DNA of 64,000 nucleotides from Prochlorococcus marinus CUG1417 (GTDB lineage: Bacteria > Cyanobacteriota > Cyanobacteriia > PCC-6307 > Cyanobiaceae): assembly GCF_017695975.1 (NCBI RefSeq), contig NZ_JAAORN010000002.1, positions 62,001-126,000 on the forward strand, in the 5' to 3' direction. Position 1 is the first letter of the stretch; every line of letters begins with the position of its first letter. The position numbers were made by a program, and so were the translations under genes. Shown here in pieces: positions 22,418 to 31,784 of the stretch. The notes beneath the pieces are model-generated. The model was not told the DNA's origin. It made no database searches and worked only from the letters and a program-made list of their open reading frames with translations.

Positions 22418-23440
22418 TTAATTCCAACCTGCCTCTTTCATCATTTTTAATGCAAGAGAATTATTTTCTCCCAGTTCATCAACAGTCACTTTATCAGGTA
22501 TAAATTCTCCGAAATTTTTGACTATTTCATTCTGATTAATTTCTTTCAGAGGATGTTCAAAAGTAGGCGCTGCTAAGCCTTTACTTCCTTCTGGTGAAGC
22601 CAAAAATTCAAGTAACTTAATTGCTTCAGATTTATTTGCTGCATATTTTGCAATTCCACCTGCACTAATATTTACATGTGCAGGATTAGGTGTAATAACA
22701 GATGTTTTTTTTGCGTATAAGGTATCTCTTCTTCCATTAATACCTCCTAGCATTCTTGCCACATAATAATGATTAACAATACCTACTCCACACTTTTTCT
22801 TAGCAACTGCTCTTACTATAGAAATATCGCCTGGGAAAAAAGGTCTAGAAACATTTGATATCATTCCACTTAACCAAGCTTTAGTTTCTAATTCTCCCTT
22901 ATTAACGATTTGATTGGCTACAAGAGATTGATTATATGGACTCTTTCTATTTCTTAAGCATACTTTACCCTTTAAAGATGGATCAGCTAAATCTGTGTAG
23001 TCCTTAATTTTATTTACATCAACAACTTTTGGATTGGCTACCATAACTCTAACTCGTCGAGTTAATGCATACCATTCCTTCCCTGGATCTTTTAATCCTA
23101 TCGGTACATCTTTTTCTAAAGTTGATGAATTAATACTCTGCAGTAAGCCTGCTTTTGCGGCATTAGTTATTCTTGCTGCATCAACAAGTAAGATTAAATC
23201 TGCTTGGGAACTCTTCCCCTCTCTCTTTAATCTCTCAATTAATGAGATCCCTGCAGCTTCAATAAGTCTAACTTTAATTCCTGTTTCTTCTGCAAATTTC
23301 TTATAAACCGCTCTATCAGTATTGTAATGTCTACCAGAATAAACTTTTACTTCTCTTTCTATTGAACTTGCAGGTATATTTAAATTAAATAAAAAAGTAC
23401 AAGATAAAGCTGAATAAAGTAATTTTTTAAAGTTTTGCAC
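22418..23440 (-). CDS. futA: Iron(III) ABC transporter substrate-binding protein (FutA/IdiA type)
   Basis: A 340-residue periplasmic or thylakoid-associated ferric-iron-binding protein. The N-terminus is a signal peptide with a hydrophobic core (about 6-24). VKVYSGRHYNTDRAVYKKF and VNHYYVARMLGG hold the tyrosines and histidine expected to bind iron in the FutA/IdiA family. The start is GTG at 23440. It diverges from a PiuC-like dioxygenase over a repeat-rich intergenic region. Permease and ATPase genes are not in this window. It is likely iron-regulated, by analogy with IdiA. Confidence 0.93.
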   Translation of the reverse strand: MQNFKKLLYSALSCTFLFNLNIPASSIEREVKVYSGRHYNTDRAVYKKFAEETGIKVRLIEAAGISLIERLKREGKSSQADLILLVDAARITNAAKAGLLQSINSSTLEKDVPIGLKDPGKEWYALTRRVRVMVANPKVVDVNKIKDYTDLADPSLKGKVCLRNRKSPYNQSLVANQIVNKGELETKAWLSGMISNVSRPFFPGDISIVRAVAKKKCGVGIVNHYYVARMLGGINGRRDTLYAKKTSVITPNPAHVNISAGGIAKYAANKSEAIKLLEFLASPEGSKGLAAPTFEHPLKEINQNEIVKNFGEFIPDKVTVDELGENNSLALKMMKEAGWN

Positions 23441-23452
23441 TTTTATAAAATA

Positions 23453-23483
23453 GTATCTATGGTTACTTTATATGTATCTATAG
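23453..23483. promoter_or_regulatory. GTATCTAT direct repeat in the futA/piuC intergenic region
   Basis: GTATCTAT occurs at 23453-23460 and 23474-23481, 21 bases apart, which is two helical turns. A further GTATC is at 23522. The site lies within 45 bases of the futA start and may be a binding site for a regulator such as Fur. This is inference from position and spacing. Confidence 0.4.
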
Positions 23484-23509
23484 CTTAAGGATTCTAAAAG
23501 ATATTTTAT

Positions 23510-23525
23510 ATACATGAACATGTAT
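23510..23525. promoter_or_regulatory. 16-base palindrome upstream of the PiuC-like gene
   Basis: ATACATG-AA-CATGTAT is a perfect inverted repeat ending 17 bases before the ATG at 23543. It has the form of a dimeric repressor operator, and its position fits repression of the dioxygenase gene. It does not match the classical Fur box closely, so the regulator is not identified. Confidence 0.5.
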
Positions 23526-23542
23526 CATTTTTTATACTCAAT

Positions 23543-24208
23543 ATGAATTATTTAACTCATCAACTTCTCATTCAAGAAGAAATTGAAGCATTTGTTCAAA
23601 ATTTAAATAAAGCAAAGAATCTTTGGGAAGATGGGAAACTGACTGCTGGGAGCCATGCATCAAAAGTAAAAAATAATCTGCAATTAAATAAAGGATCAGA
23701 AATATCTAAGAAACTCTCTCATTTAATCAAAAAGAAACTTCTTTCTAACTCTCTAATAAAAAGTTTTGCCCTACCCAAAACGATACATGGGATTATGTTT
23801 ACAAAATCACTAAATAATATGCATTATGGAAGGCATATAGATAATCCATTTATGTCATCTGGAAGATCTGATTTGTCTTTTACTATTTCATTAACTGATA
23901 AAAATAAATATAACGGAGGAGAGTTAATTATTGAAGAGATGAATTCAGAAAAAGAATTCAAACTAAATGCAGGTGAAATTGTTATTTATCCAAGCACCTA
24001 TTTGCATTCTGTTAAAGAAATTAAAAATGGAGAAAGGTTAGTATGTGTGGGTTGGATTGAAAGTTATGTAAAATCAATAGAGGAAAGAGAATATTTATTT
24101 GATCTTGATGCAGGTGCCAAAGGCTTACTAGCAAAAAATGGACGGTCAGATGAATTGGATCTTATTTTCAAGTCTTATTCAAATCTTCTTAGATTACTTG
24201 GTAATTAG
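23543..24208 (+). CDS. piuC: PKHD-type Fe(II)/2-oxoglutarate dioxygenase (PiuC-like)
   Basis: A 221-residue 2-oxoglutarate-dependent dioxygenase matching the PiuC/YbiX family, often iron-repressed and found beside iron-uptake genes. The metal motif HIDN (HxD) is in MHYGRHIDNPFM, the distal histidine is in YPSTYLHSVKEI, and ERLVCVGWIES has the arginine for 2-oxoglutarate. GGELIIEE is also typical. It lies divergent to futA, consistent with shared iron control. The substrate is unknown. Confidence 0.92.
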   Translation: MNYLTHQLLIQEEIEAFVQNLNKAKNLWEDGKLTAGSHASKVKNNLQLNKGSEISKKLSHLIKKKLLSNSLIKSFALPKTIHGIMFTKSLNNMHYGRHIDNPFMSSGRSDLSFTISLTDKNKYNGGELIIEEMNSEKEFKLNAGEIVIYPSTYLHSVKEIKNGERLVCVGWIESYVKSIEEREYLFDLDAGAKGLLAKNGRSDELDLIFKSYSNLLRLLGN

Positions 24209-24281: not shown

Positions 24282-24509
24282 ATGCAAAAAAAAAGTTCCA
24301 TTGCTTTATTCTTAGCAGCAACTAGCGCAATCGCACTATCTACCCCGGTCAAAAGTGGTGAATATGATTTGGGCGGCCTAAAAGAGTGGAATACTGATAT
24401 GGATATCGACGCAGATTTCGTGCTTGATGCAGAGGCTCAAAAATTAGCTGATGAAGCGGAGAAGTCAAGTATGTGCATTCCTATTGGAGAAGGAGAAAAC
24501 TGCTGGTAA
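24282..24509 (+). CDS. Small secreted hypothetical protein
   Basis: A 75-residue protein with a likely signal peptide (KKSSIALFLAATSAIALS, cleavage near residue 25, VKSGE) and an acidic mature part. The last residues have a pair of cysteines (SSMCIPIGEGENCW). It is probably exported to the periplasm. No family is recognised. It ends before a bidirectional terminator and is convergent with the porin gene. Confidence 0.72.
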   Translation: MQKKSSIALFLAATSAIALSTPVKSGEYDLGGLKEWNTDMDIDADFVLDAEAQKLADEAEKSSMCIPIGEGENCW

Positions 24510-24601: not shown

Positions 24602-25957
24602 TTAGAATTTAAATGAAGTTTCTAGAATAGCACCTTTGTGATTGTGCTCTTTTTCTCCTGTACTATCTATTCCACCAAAGACAGCAGGAGTAATAGTTAC
24701 TGAATCATTTAGTTTGTATGAATAATACAATTCAAAAGCTAAAGGATCTCCACCTTGATCTTCCCTACCTCCACTTCCTGCTCTAACTGCATCATCTTCA
24801 TTCGTTGTAGGTTTACCAAATGCAAAACCAATTTTATCATCTGGCTGGAACATATCTGCCCAGTTAAGCCCCACAAAATAAGCACTAGAATTATCAGTTG
24901 ACGAAGTCGCATTTTCATACGAAGTTGTATCAAAACCTAGTGAGACTGAAGGTACAAAAGTTCCTACATCATCAGGTCTCCACCATCCTCTTAAACCTAC
25001 TGAAGTAAAGTTCTCGCATACTTTACCTGACTTACAAGTTCCCCCATGGCCATTGGTGTGGTAATAAGTATCACTCCAACCGTTTGATTTGACATTAAGA
25101 AGCGCTGAAACAGAGTAATTTGGTTTTGTATAACCAACCTGAGTAGCCCAACTTGTCTTTGTCTCATCAGTCAAAATCCCAGTATTGTAGTAAGCTGCAG
25201 GACTTCCTGTTGTCTGAGAGGTGTTTGATTTAGTACCTACGTTTGTACTGATTGAGAATCCGTTATCTGCCTTATAAGCAACACCAGCTCCTGTATCTGT
25301 ACTCGCACCGTATGCCTCACCATTACCTCCAAGGGTAAATTGCTTTGTAACCGGCTTATAGATGGAGGGTGTAGCTCCATGCATATAGTAGTTTTCAATT
25401 TTTGGACCAACCCAGGCAGTCAAGTTATCACCTACAGGGAATTCGTACCAAATCTTATCTACCTTTAGAGTATCTCCGTTGCTATTACCAGACTTGAGGT
25501 ATGTACCATAAGTTTTAGTAACTGACCAATCTGAATGATTACCTGTTTTAATTCTTACGTAAAGATTATCATCACCAGTGAAACTTGTATTGAGATTCAT
25601 CTGATAGGTATACATTCCTGAAATTGCTTCAGACGCAGTTGAGTCGACGTCAGAATAGTTGACTCCACCTAATGTAAAGATAGCCTTACCATCTAATGTT
25701 GTAGTATCTGAGAAGCTCCCTGCTTCAAAGTTATTTTGTTTAGCTTCTAATGCATCAACTCGAGCTTTAGTAATTGCTAAATCTTCATTAACTTCGTTAA
25801 CGAATGTGTTACTGTCTAATCTGTTTAAAGATGATTTATTGCTACTACTGTAGCTATTCATCTCTTTTAAATTGATAATGTCGGAAGCTTGTGCTGCAAT
25901 TGGAGCTACTAAGCCCACAGCAGTTGAAGCTACCATCATTTGTTGGAAGAGTTTCAT
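24602..25957 (-). CDS. Outer-membrane porin
   Basis: A 451-residue outer-membrane beta-barrel of the cyanobacterial porin type. The N-terminus is a signal peptide (about 1-24, ending AAQA before SD). Next comes a serine-rich and coiled-coil segment (about 45-80, KARVDALEAKQNNFE) and then alternating aromatic beta strands to a C-terminal phenylalanine (ILETSFKF), the usual porin ending. I see no clear surface-layer homology domain, which many freshwater cyanobacterial porins have. A small CKSGKVC loop may form a disulfide. It has a GAGG-type ribosome site before ATG. Confidence 0.88.
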   Translation of the reverse strand: MKLFQQMMVASTAVGLVAPIAAQASDIINLKEMNSYSSSNKSSLNRLDSNTFVNEVNEDLAITKARVDALEAKQNNFEAGSFSDTTTLDGKAIFTLGGVNYSDVDSTASEAISGMYTYQMNLNTSFTGDDNLYVRIKTGNHSDWSVTKTYGTYLKSGNSNGDTLKVDKIWYEFPVGDNLTAWVGPKIENYYMHGATPSIYKPVTKQFTLGGNGEAYGASTDTGAGVAYKADNGFSISTNVGTKSNTSQTTGSPAAYYNTGILTDETKTSWATQVGYTKPNYSVSALLNVKSNGWSDTYYHTNGHGGTCKSGKVCENFTSVGLRGWWRPDDVGTFVPSVSLGFDTTSYENATSSTDNSSAYFVGLNWADMFQPDDKIGFAFGKPTTNEDDAVRAGSGGREDQGGDPLAFELYYSYKLNDSVTITPAVFGGIDSTGEKEHNHKGAILETSFKF

Positions 25958-26046: not shown

Positions 26047-26064
26047 GCGTATCAAAAGATACGC
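26047..26064. repeat. Perfect hairpin GCGTATC-AAAA-GATACGC downstream of glyQ
   Basis: A 7-bp stem with an AAAA loop on the plus strand, 21 bases beyond the glyQ stop. No T run follows on the minus strand, so it is not a standard terminator for glyQ. It may stabilise the glyQ transcript or be a regulator site for the porin. Confidence 0.5.
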
Positions 26065-31117: not shown

Positions 31118-31642
31118 TTAAGCCAACGAGGGGATTTCAGCTTTTAATTGCATGGCCCAAGACTCAAGACGTTTATCGGTTAAATCAGATTCACTATCCT
31201 CATCAAGAGGTAATCCACAAAAGCTCTCTCCTATAACACTTTTAGACTCATCAAATGTATAAGAAGATTTATCTACGTAACCGACCATTTCGGCTCCTGC
31301 TTTAGTGAAGTAGCTATGAAGTTCTTCCATTGCATCACAATAGTTTTCTGTATAGGTAGAAGAATCTCCTAACCCAAAAATTGCAACTTTTTTCCCTGAT
31401 AAACTTAGTTCACCAATATCCTCTAAGATTGAATCCCATGCAGTCCCAGATCTTTCTTCATCGGCACCAGTATTCCAAGTAGGAATCCCGCAGATAATTC
31501 CATCAAGACCTTCAAATTCTGAAAGATCATCAACATCAGATACATCTTTAGGTGCTTCTGCTGAAGAGATAAAGTTGTGAAGACGATCAGCTACATCTTC
31601 AGTTTTTCCAGTTGTTGTTGCGTAATAAATTCCTACAGTCAT
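31118..31642 (-). CDS. isiB: Flavodoxin
   Basis: A 174-residue FMN electron carrier that replaces ferredoxin in photosynthesis under iron limitation. The phosphate loop is YYATTTGKTEDVADRL, the aromatic loops flanking FMN contain IPTWNTGADEERSGTAWD and GLGDSSTYTENYCDAM. The long-chain loop between these regions is present, so this is a long-chain flavodoxin. Highly acidic, as expected for a photosystem I acceptor. It stands upstream of pcb on the same strand and diverges from a peroxiredoxin-like gene. Confidence 0.97.
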   Translation of the reverse strand: MTVGIYYATTTGKTEDVADRLHNFISSAEAPKDVSDVDDLSEFEGLDGIICGIPTWNTGADEERSGTAWDSILEDIGELSLSGKKVAIFGLGDSSTYTENYCDAMEELHSYFTKAGAEMVGYVDKSSYTFDESKSVIGESFCGLPLDEDSESDLTDKRLESWAMQLKAEIPSLA

Positions 31643-31784
31643 AACTTCAAAATGTTTACATTAAGATAATAAAATCTAAAAACGTTAAATTAATTTCTTT
31701 AAAAACTTTTTCAAGTAAAATTTTATACTAATCAACGTAAGAAAAATTTTTTTGAGAATAACTCTATAAAACATTTAAAACATC

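Follow-up and report, generated by a model that had tools for sequence, protein, structure and literature searches.

A dyad with the core TAC-N8-GTA (dyad B) lies in the 102-bp gap (20% G+C) that separates the divergent futA and piuC-like genes of Prochlorococcus marinus CUG1417, and its conservation within and beyond the genus indicates that it is very probably a regulator site. The conserved element, CATTTnATAC-N8-GTATCAAwTG, may well be an operator of the iron regulon of marine picocyanobacteria and the binding site of reg1, a CRP/FNR-family protein. The core was present in all 22 genus loci, 20 of which carried the longer form ATAC-N8-GTAT around a variable centre, and in 23 of 40 futA/piuC loci of other genera, where each of eight other spacings occurred in 0–1 of the 40. 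Within the same 125 bp of the genus loci, other spacers from 4 to 12 gave 0–2 of 22, for the TAC/GTA and the GTA/TAC patterns alike.

The region between futA and piuC

The window, the whole stretch of 64,000 nucleotides that was analysed, belongs to a genome of 1.65 Mb; its features are collected in Table 1. The genus set (n = 22) comprised this genome and those genus members, 24 in a draw of 300 genomes, in which the dioxygenase was detected. The other-genus set comprised 40 piuC upstream regions, mostly one per genus, and futA was not found upstream in six of them. The name futA was taken from the preliminary description of this DNA and agrees with the gene order, the protein having no dedicated family match. 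The piuC-like protein matches the NCBIfam Fe2+-dependent dioxygenase family NF003974 with 320.7 bits (cut-off 143). The aligned futA start codon in 22 relatives is GTG in 16, TTG in four, ATG in one and none of these in one. If TATACT serves as the piuC -10 element, the mRNA would be nearly leaderless; taken together, the futA start codons and the TATA-like element directly 5' of the piuC ATG suggest that both mRNAs may be nearly leaderless. The 75-aa small ORF is also found 3' of piuC in other genera; a dyad lies 5' of it at one locus (L050), and at another (L051) it faces futA without piuC between them.

Table 1 Coordinates of the features in the window and of reg1.
Feature	Position	Strand	Remarks
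futA/idiA, Fe(III) ABC-transporter binding protein	22418..23440	-	GTG start at 23440; solute-binding families
Block A, TAGTATCTATGGTTACTTTATA	23451..23472	.	Contains GTA-N8-TAC at 23453-23466, including first GTATCTAT
Second GTATCTAT copy	23474..23481	+	Not conserved, taken as chance
Dyad B, TATAC-ATGAACAT-GTATC, TAC-N8-GTA core	23509..23526	.	Conserved, between futA and piuC
TATACT, possible piuC -10 element	23533..23538	+	Position only; TATA-like in genus alignment
piuC-like (PiuC/YbiX-like) Fe(II)/2OG oxygenase	23543..24208	+	ATG 23543; Pfam PF13640
Small secreted-looking 75-aa protein	24282-24509	+	No Pfam or NCBIfam match
OprB-type porin gene	24602-25957	-	Adjoins futA/piuC island
GTA-N8-TAC box before porin gene	26049..26062	-	13/14 aligned relatives and own
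isiB, flavodoxin	31118..31642	-	Family matches
GTATAAAATTTTAC (GTA-N8-TAC), overlapping isiB dyad	31715..31728	-	23/25 genus loci
Dyad TTAC-N8-GTAT before isiB	31725..31740	-	TAC-N8-GTATAA in 23/25 genus isiB promoters
reg1, CRP/FNR-family regulator, 206 aa	L141:1438-2058		Convergent with ferritin; PF13545, PF00325

The preliminary description, whose coordinates for the futA start, the dioxygenase ATG and both of its motifs were correct, had proposed a direct repeat and a perfect palindrome as regulator sites in a divergent iron promoter. The repeat GTATCTAT is present at 23453-23460 and 23474-23481, 21 bases apart. However, a repeat of at least 8 arose in 30% of 2000 dinucleotide shuffles of the 102 bp (P 0.30), and both copies occur together in this genome alone among the 22 of the genus, so the repeat is best taken as chance. 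It was rejected as a regulator site on the same two counts, lack of conservation in close relatives being the refuting condition that the description itself had named. The second motif, ATACATGAACATGTAT (23510-23525), falls short of a perfect palindrome: the reverse complement reads ATACATGTTCATGTAT, and the motif consists of two 7-bp arms around AA. An inverted repeat as good as this arose in 11% of shuffles (P 0.11), and the exact form is specific to this strain (1 of 22). The comparison with other strains thus left the repeats as written unique to this genome and brought out TAC-N8-GTA and GTA-N8-TAC, conserved in 22 of 22 loci each; the former bears out the broader claim of a regulator site in a divergent iron promoter.

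Dyad B of this genome scores 11/14 against TTGATAC-N8-GTATCAA (shuffle P 0.02). A logo was built from 27 sites, namely the 25 of 40 loci that scored at least 11/14 at a fitting position and the representatives L030 and L034, and it reads C-A-T-T-T-n-A-T-A-C-N8-G-T-A-t-C-A-A-w-T-G-n-T-n-C. Its scored arm positions are partly selected, because the rows were picked by that score, and its centre contains almost no information. Outside the scored arms, C at -3 is conserved in 19, T23 in 23, G24 in 22 and C28 in 17 of the 27 sites. The distance from dyad B to the piuC start varies between genera: the TAC lies 30–32 bp 5' of the piuC ATG in the genus of this strain and 71–83 bp 5' of it in 21 of the 23 other-genus loci with the dyad, the remaining two being at 58 and 30. 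The exact core is missing from 17 of the 40 other-genus loci, and 10 of these 17 fall in the last 11 loci (L099–L109; g5, g25, g34, g10, g49, g45, g23, g48 and g6). In the marine Synechococcus-like g5, which has reg1, no dyad was found at futA/piuC in L264, L286 and L287 (best 9/14).

NtcA, the global nitrogen regulator, recognizes boxes of the pattern GTA-N8-TAC, which in activated promoters lie ~ 22 nt from the -10 element. Block A has this pattern and dyad B does not. The GTA-N8-TAC of block A was found in 22 of 22 genus loci and in 4 of 40 other-genus loci; a 20-mer from the block, GTATCTATGGTTACTTTATA, is exact in 19 of the 22 and unique in the genome of this strain at up to three mismatches. 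The end of the box is 12 bp from the futA start codon, and block A probably overlaps the futA promoter. Judged by pattern and distribution, block A is a separate, nearly genus-specific candidate NtcA-type box close to the futA start, where NtcA or reg1 could possibly act as a repressor.

Related sites at isiB, ferritin and the porin gene

The preliminary description had suggested a motif search near isiB and other iron genes, and in the genus TAC-N8-GTA is indeed found again 5' of isiB and of ferritin. The isiB set contains 25 of 30 loci, the five left out being other flavodoxin-domain proteins. The conserved genus arrangement at isiB is TAC-N8-GTA-N8-TAC, in which one full site shares a half with the dyad. 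In other genera, 16 of 20 isiB loci have a dyad score no better than that of shuffles (fraction >0.05), and among the five g5 isiB loci that were read one (L043) has the dyad. Before ferritin, sites resembling TATAC-AAAATGTT-GTATT (TAC-N8-GTATTA) occur in 74 of 81 genus loci; in the remaining seven the site was not found or the flank was too short. Close relatedness alone could explain the ferritin site, because its centre is as conserved as its arms.

Three further placements of the dyad were rejected. At the porin gene the sequence of this strain scores 11/14 (P 0.005), but the relatives keep GTA-N8-TAC there; the porin set excluded one of 15 loci, which had no porin start. Before the small ORF at 24282 the score is 8/14 (P 0.9). 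Before reg1 it is 9/14 in this genome (P 0.78), and in other genera a shuffle fraction of 0.05 or less was obtained at 1 of 19 loci (L260).

The exact sequence TGATAC-N8-GTATCA occurs at 17 places in 16 of the 300 genomes. Eight of these are at iron loci: between futA and piuC (L040, L041, L045 and L047), between futA and the small ORF (L051), between piuC and the small ORF (L050), at isiB (L043) and at a CRP paralogue with futC (L042). The other nine lie mostly in coding frames, some having no clear context and one not having been viewed. Looser searches added little: a whole-genome search for KATAC-N8-GTATM at up to one mismatch was uninformative (109 places versus 175 for the reversed control), and ATACATG-NN-CATGTAT at up to two mismatches gave seven places versus three, with no iron context at L002–L004.

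Candidate regulators of the dyad

The FUR and CRP regulator families were searched in the genome of this strain. Two proteins, NtcA and reg1, exceeded the PF13545 cut-off, and a GntR-like protein stayed below it; the Crp-type HTH of reg1 matches PF13545 with 30.5 bits (cut-off 27) and PF00325 with 24.9 (cut-off 21). The recognition helix of reg1, STRVTSTR, is one letter apart from that of NtcA, STRVTITR, and reg1 should therefore read GTA/TAC half-sites. No PF00027 match to a cNMP-binding domain was obtained for reg1 at 0.001, and its AlphaFold2 model was poor (mean pLDDT 40.4). Five cysteines (C46, C48, C71, C76 and C135) are invariant in the 15 of 15 aligned reg1 proteins. A small ORF of ~ 90–110 aa lies 3' of reg1 in most of L141 and L265–L280.

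The gene neighbourhood of reg1 is rich in iron genes. Ferritin adjoins reg1 in this genome and lies within the same 3.6 kb in 16 of 17 further loci with reg1 called, often with pcb; one regulator/ferritin comparison took 17 of the 81 loci, and three GC-rich regulator/ferritin loci gave no reg1 ORF call. In the genome of this strain reg1 and isiB are on different contigs. Counted by eye, isiB lies within 2 kb of reg1 in at least 15 genomes and within 6 kb in at least 12 further ones (at least 27 in total). In the marine Synechococcus-like locus L264, a single 8.6-kb stretch contains reg1, isiB, a ferredoxin-like gene, ferritin, futA and piuC. The 80 nearest reg1 loci encode proteins 96–99% identical to reg1. 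Their labels read Prochlorococcus, with MIT 9201 and MIT 9314 among them, or uncultured Synechococcaceae; they agree with the placement of this strain in Prochlorococcus, and we take the names to denote the high-light II clade. A search of 242 genomes of the class at E 1e-20 gave no match to reg1 outside its own family. Helix and neighbourhood together make reg1 a credible candidate for the protein that binds the dyad, an assignment held with about even confidence.

A regulator other than reg1, NtcA and Fur might bind the dyad instead, which is rather unlikely: the link from reg1 to the site is one that we infer, the half-sites are oriented in a puzzling way and some near-complete genomes with piuC are without reg1, but the gene neighbourhood favours reg1. 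By eye, ~ 47 of the 300 genomes have no reg1-level match (best E >1e-20 or none), many of them incomplete; at least six near-complete ones keep piuC (for example G005, G032, G132, G217, G224 and G226).

Binding by NtcA, at least at block A, would couple nitrogen status to iron uptake. NtcA is present in this genome, and GTA-N8-TAC is conserved at futA (22 of 22), isiB (23 of 25) and the porin gene (13 of 14 relatives and this strain). As a yardstick glnA was of limited use, 22 of 23 loci having no GTA-N8-TAC within 230 bp; the genus glnA upstream regions nevertheless keep a GTTAC-n4-GATAC-type element with the same GATAC half-site, so that NtcA and reg1 cannot be told apart by their half-site letters. 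The half-sites of dyad B, however, are reversed and its outer triplet is not TAC; ferritin has dyad B, yet GTA-N8-TAC is nearby in 1 of 74 loci; and block A, unlike dyad B, hardly occurs beyond the genus (4 of 40). Overall, an NtcA role at these sites is considered unlikely.

The preliminary description had also noted a poor match to the classical Fur box, and this was borne out: the best match in the futA/piuC promoter is 10/19 against GATAATGATAATCATTATC, equalled by all 200 shuffles (P 1.0), and the TGAGAA core is absent from both strands. The dyad might be a variant Fur box with wide spacing, bound by Fur. The targets are iron genes, the genome encodes two Fur-family proteins, and the outer letters TGATA...TATCA of the dyad resemble what we take to be Fur half-sites. 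One of the two proteins is probably Zur, as it adjoins metal ABC-transporter genes. Matches to the Fur consensus reach 17/19 before reg1 and 15/19 before ferritin, both beyond all 200 shuffles, versus shuffle level in the futA/piuC promoter; the isiB promoter (11/19) is likewise at shuffle level. Given such strong Fur-type matches at other promoters of this genome, the site of Fur itself looks different from the dyad. Fur boxes have a 7-1-7 geometry, which the dyad does not fit, being even-centred with 8 letter-free bp in the middle. Of the two options left by the preliminary description, a variant Fur or another regulator, the second is favoured and Fur as the reader of the dyad is improbable.

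The reg1 gene itself may well be under Fur. The Fur box TGATAWTAATTCTCATTATCA is present in 77 of 80 genus reg1 loci, and an element resembling TTGCTATTGAGAATCGCTTGCAA with TGAGAAT lies ~ 70–105 bp before reg1 in 19 of 19 other-genus loci. This element is a predicted Fur site, on the basis of its TGAGAAT core, which we take to be Fur-type, and of TGAGAATTATTCTCA at a single locus (L253); when scored solely on the E. coli Fur consensus, it mostly falls short of significance.

That the repeats are chance and the conservation reflects core promoter elements only is very improbable and already disfavoured for dyad B, less so for block A: the repeats are near chance in this one genome and the futA -10 region may fall within block A, but the dyad keeps its exact N8 spacing in 23 of 40 loci of other genera, its centre is without information and copies stand at other iron genes.

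A proposed circuit and its relation to known systems

A two-step circuit is put forward tentatively, in which Fur would repress reg1 and reg1, a CRP/FNR protein restricted to its family in this sample, would control futA, piuC, flavodoxin and ferritin by binding NtcA-like half-sites in pairs (TAC-N8-GTA), perhaps sensing iron or an Fe-S cluster through its invariant cysteines. In iron-replete cells Fur would keep reg1 low via the Fur-type boxes at its gene; upon iron loss reg1 would rise and turn on futA, piuC and isiB, possibly acting in the opposite sense at ferritin. Because TAC-N8-GTA reverses GTA-N8-TAC, dyad B would be no direct match for a single dimer whose helix resembles that of NtcA. 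Dyad B could instead represent the inner halves of two NtcA-like sites with centres 22 bp (two helical turns) apart, so that its GTATCA-like half-sites would point outward and two CRP-type dimers would sit side by side; the outer TAC halves of such a pair are weak in the logo.

According to PMC3598940, four genes respond to iron in both MED4 and MIT9313, futA/idiA and isiB among them, and PMC9606707 reports that idiA rises under iron deficiency. Because of these responses, activation by reg1 once Fur releases the reg1 gene is the simplest reading. Putative Fe-uptake porins rise with FutA in iron-limited Synechococcus, according to PMC10912551. Prochlorococcus and Synechococcus are iron-limited in parts of the ocean, and futA/idiA and flavodoxin serve as iron-stress markers. 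Should both the operator and its reading by a CRP-type protein prove real, these markers would report a second regulator under Fur and possibly, by way of NtcA-like sites, a link to nitrogen; the motif would then offer a direct route to the prediction of iron-regulated genes in uncultured picocyanobacteria.

The dyad shares with the Fur boxes of iron genes an iron regulon and the TGATA/TATCA outer letters, but differs from them in being even-centred, with N8 and without a 7-1-7 core, and in that Fur-like boxes occur elsewhere in the genome. NtcA resembles the pair of dyad B and reg1 in its half-site letters, its nearly identical recognition helix and the N8 spacer; unlike the NtcA system, dyad B has the order TAC-N8-GTA and iron-gene targets, and reg1 is without a cNMP-domain match. 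IdiB of Synechococcus elongatus PCC 7942 is a CRP/FNR-like protein that regulates idiA (= futA). IdiB and reg1 are both non-Fur regulators linked, in the case of reg1 by prediction, to futA/idiA; reg1 had no relative at the threshold given above outside its own family in the 242 genomes. In PMC11979508, IdiB is listed as a local transcription factor that has a regulon. In the accessible parts of the open-licence literature, neither the operator nor a role of reg1 in iron regulation was found described; Prochlorococcus iron-transcriptome work may mention either.

The best NCBIfam relative of reg1 is PtrA, a cyanobacterial CRP/FNR protein (42.3 bits, far under the cut-off of 300). Other genera contain a second CRP-family paralogue, 29–35% identical to reg1 in L286–L288, which lies directly 5' of futC (L288 and L042) or near the porin/piuC island (L286 and L287). 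In L042 an exact TGATAC-N8-GTATCA is located 5' of this paralogue; in L287 a dyad scoring 12/14 lies at its called start.
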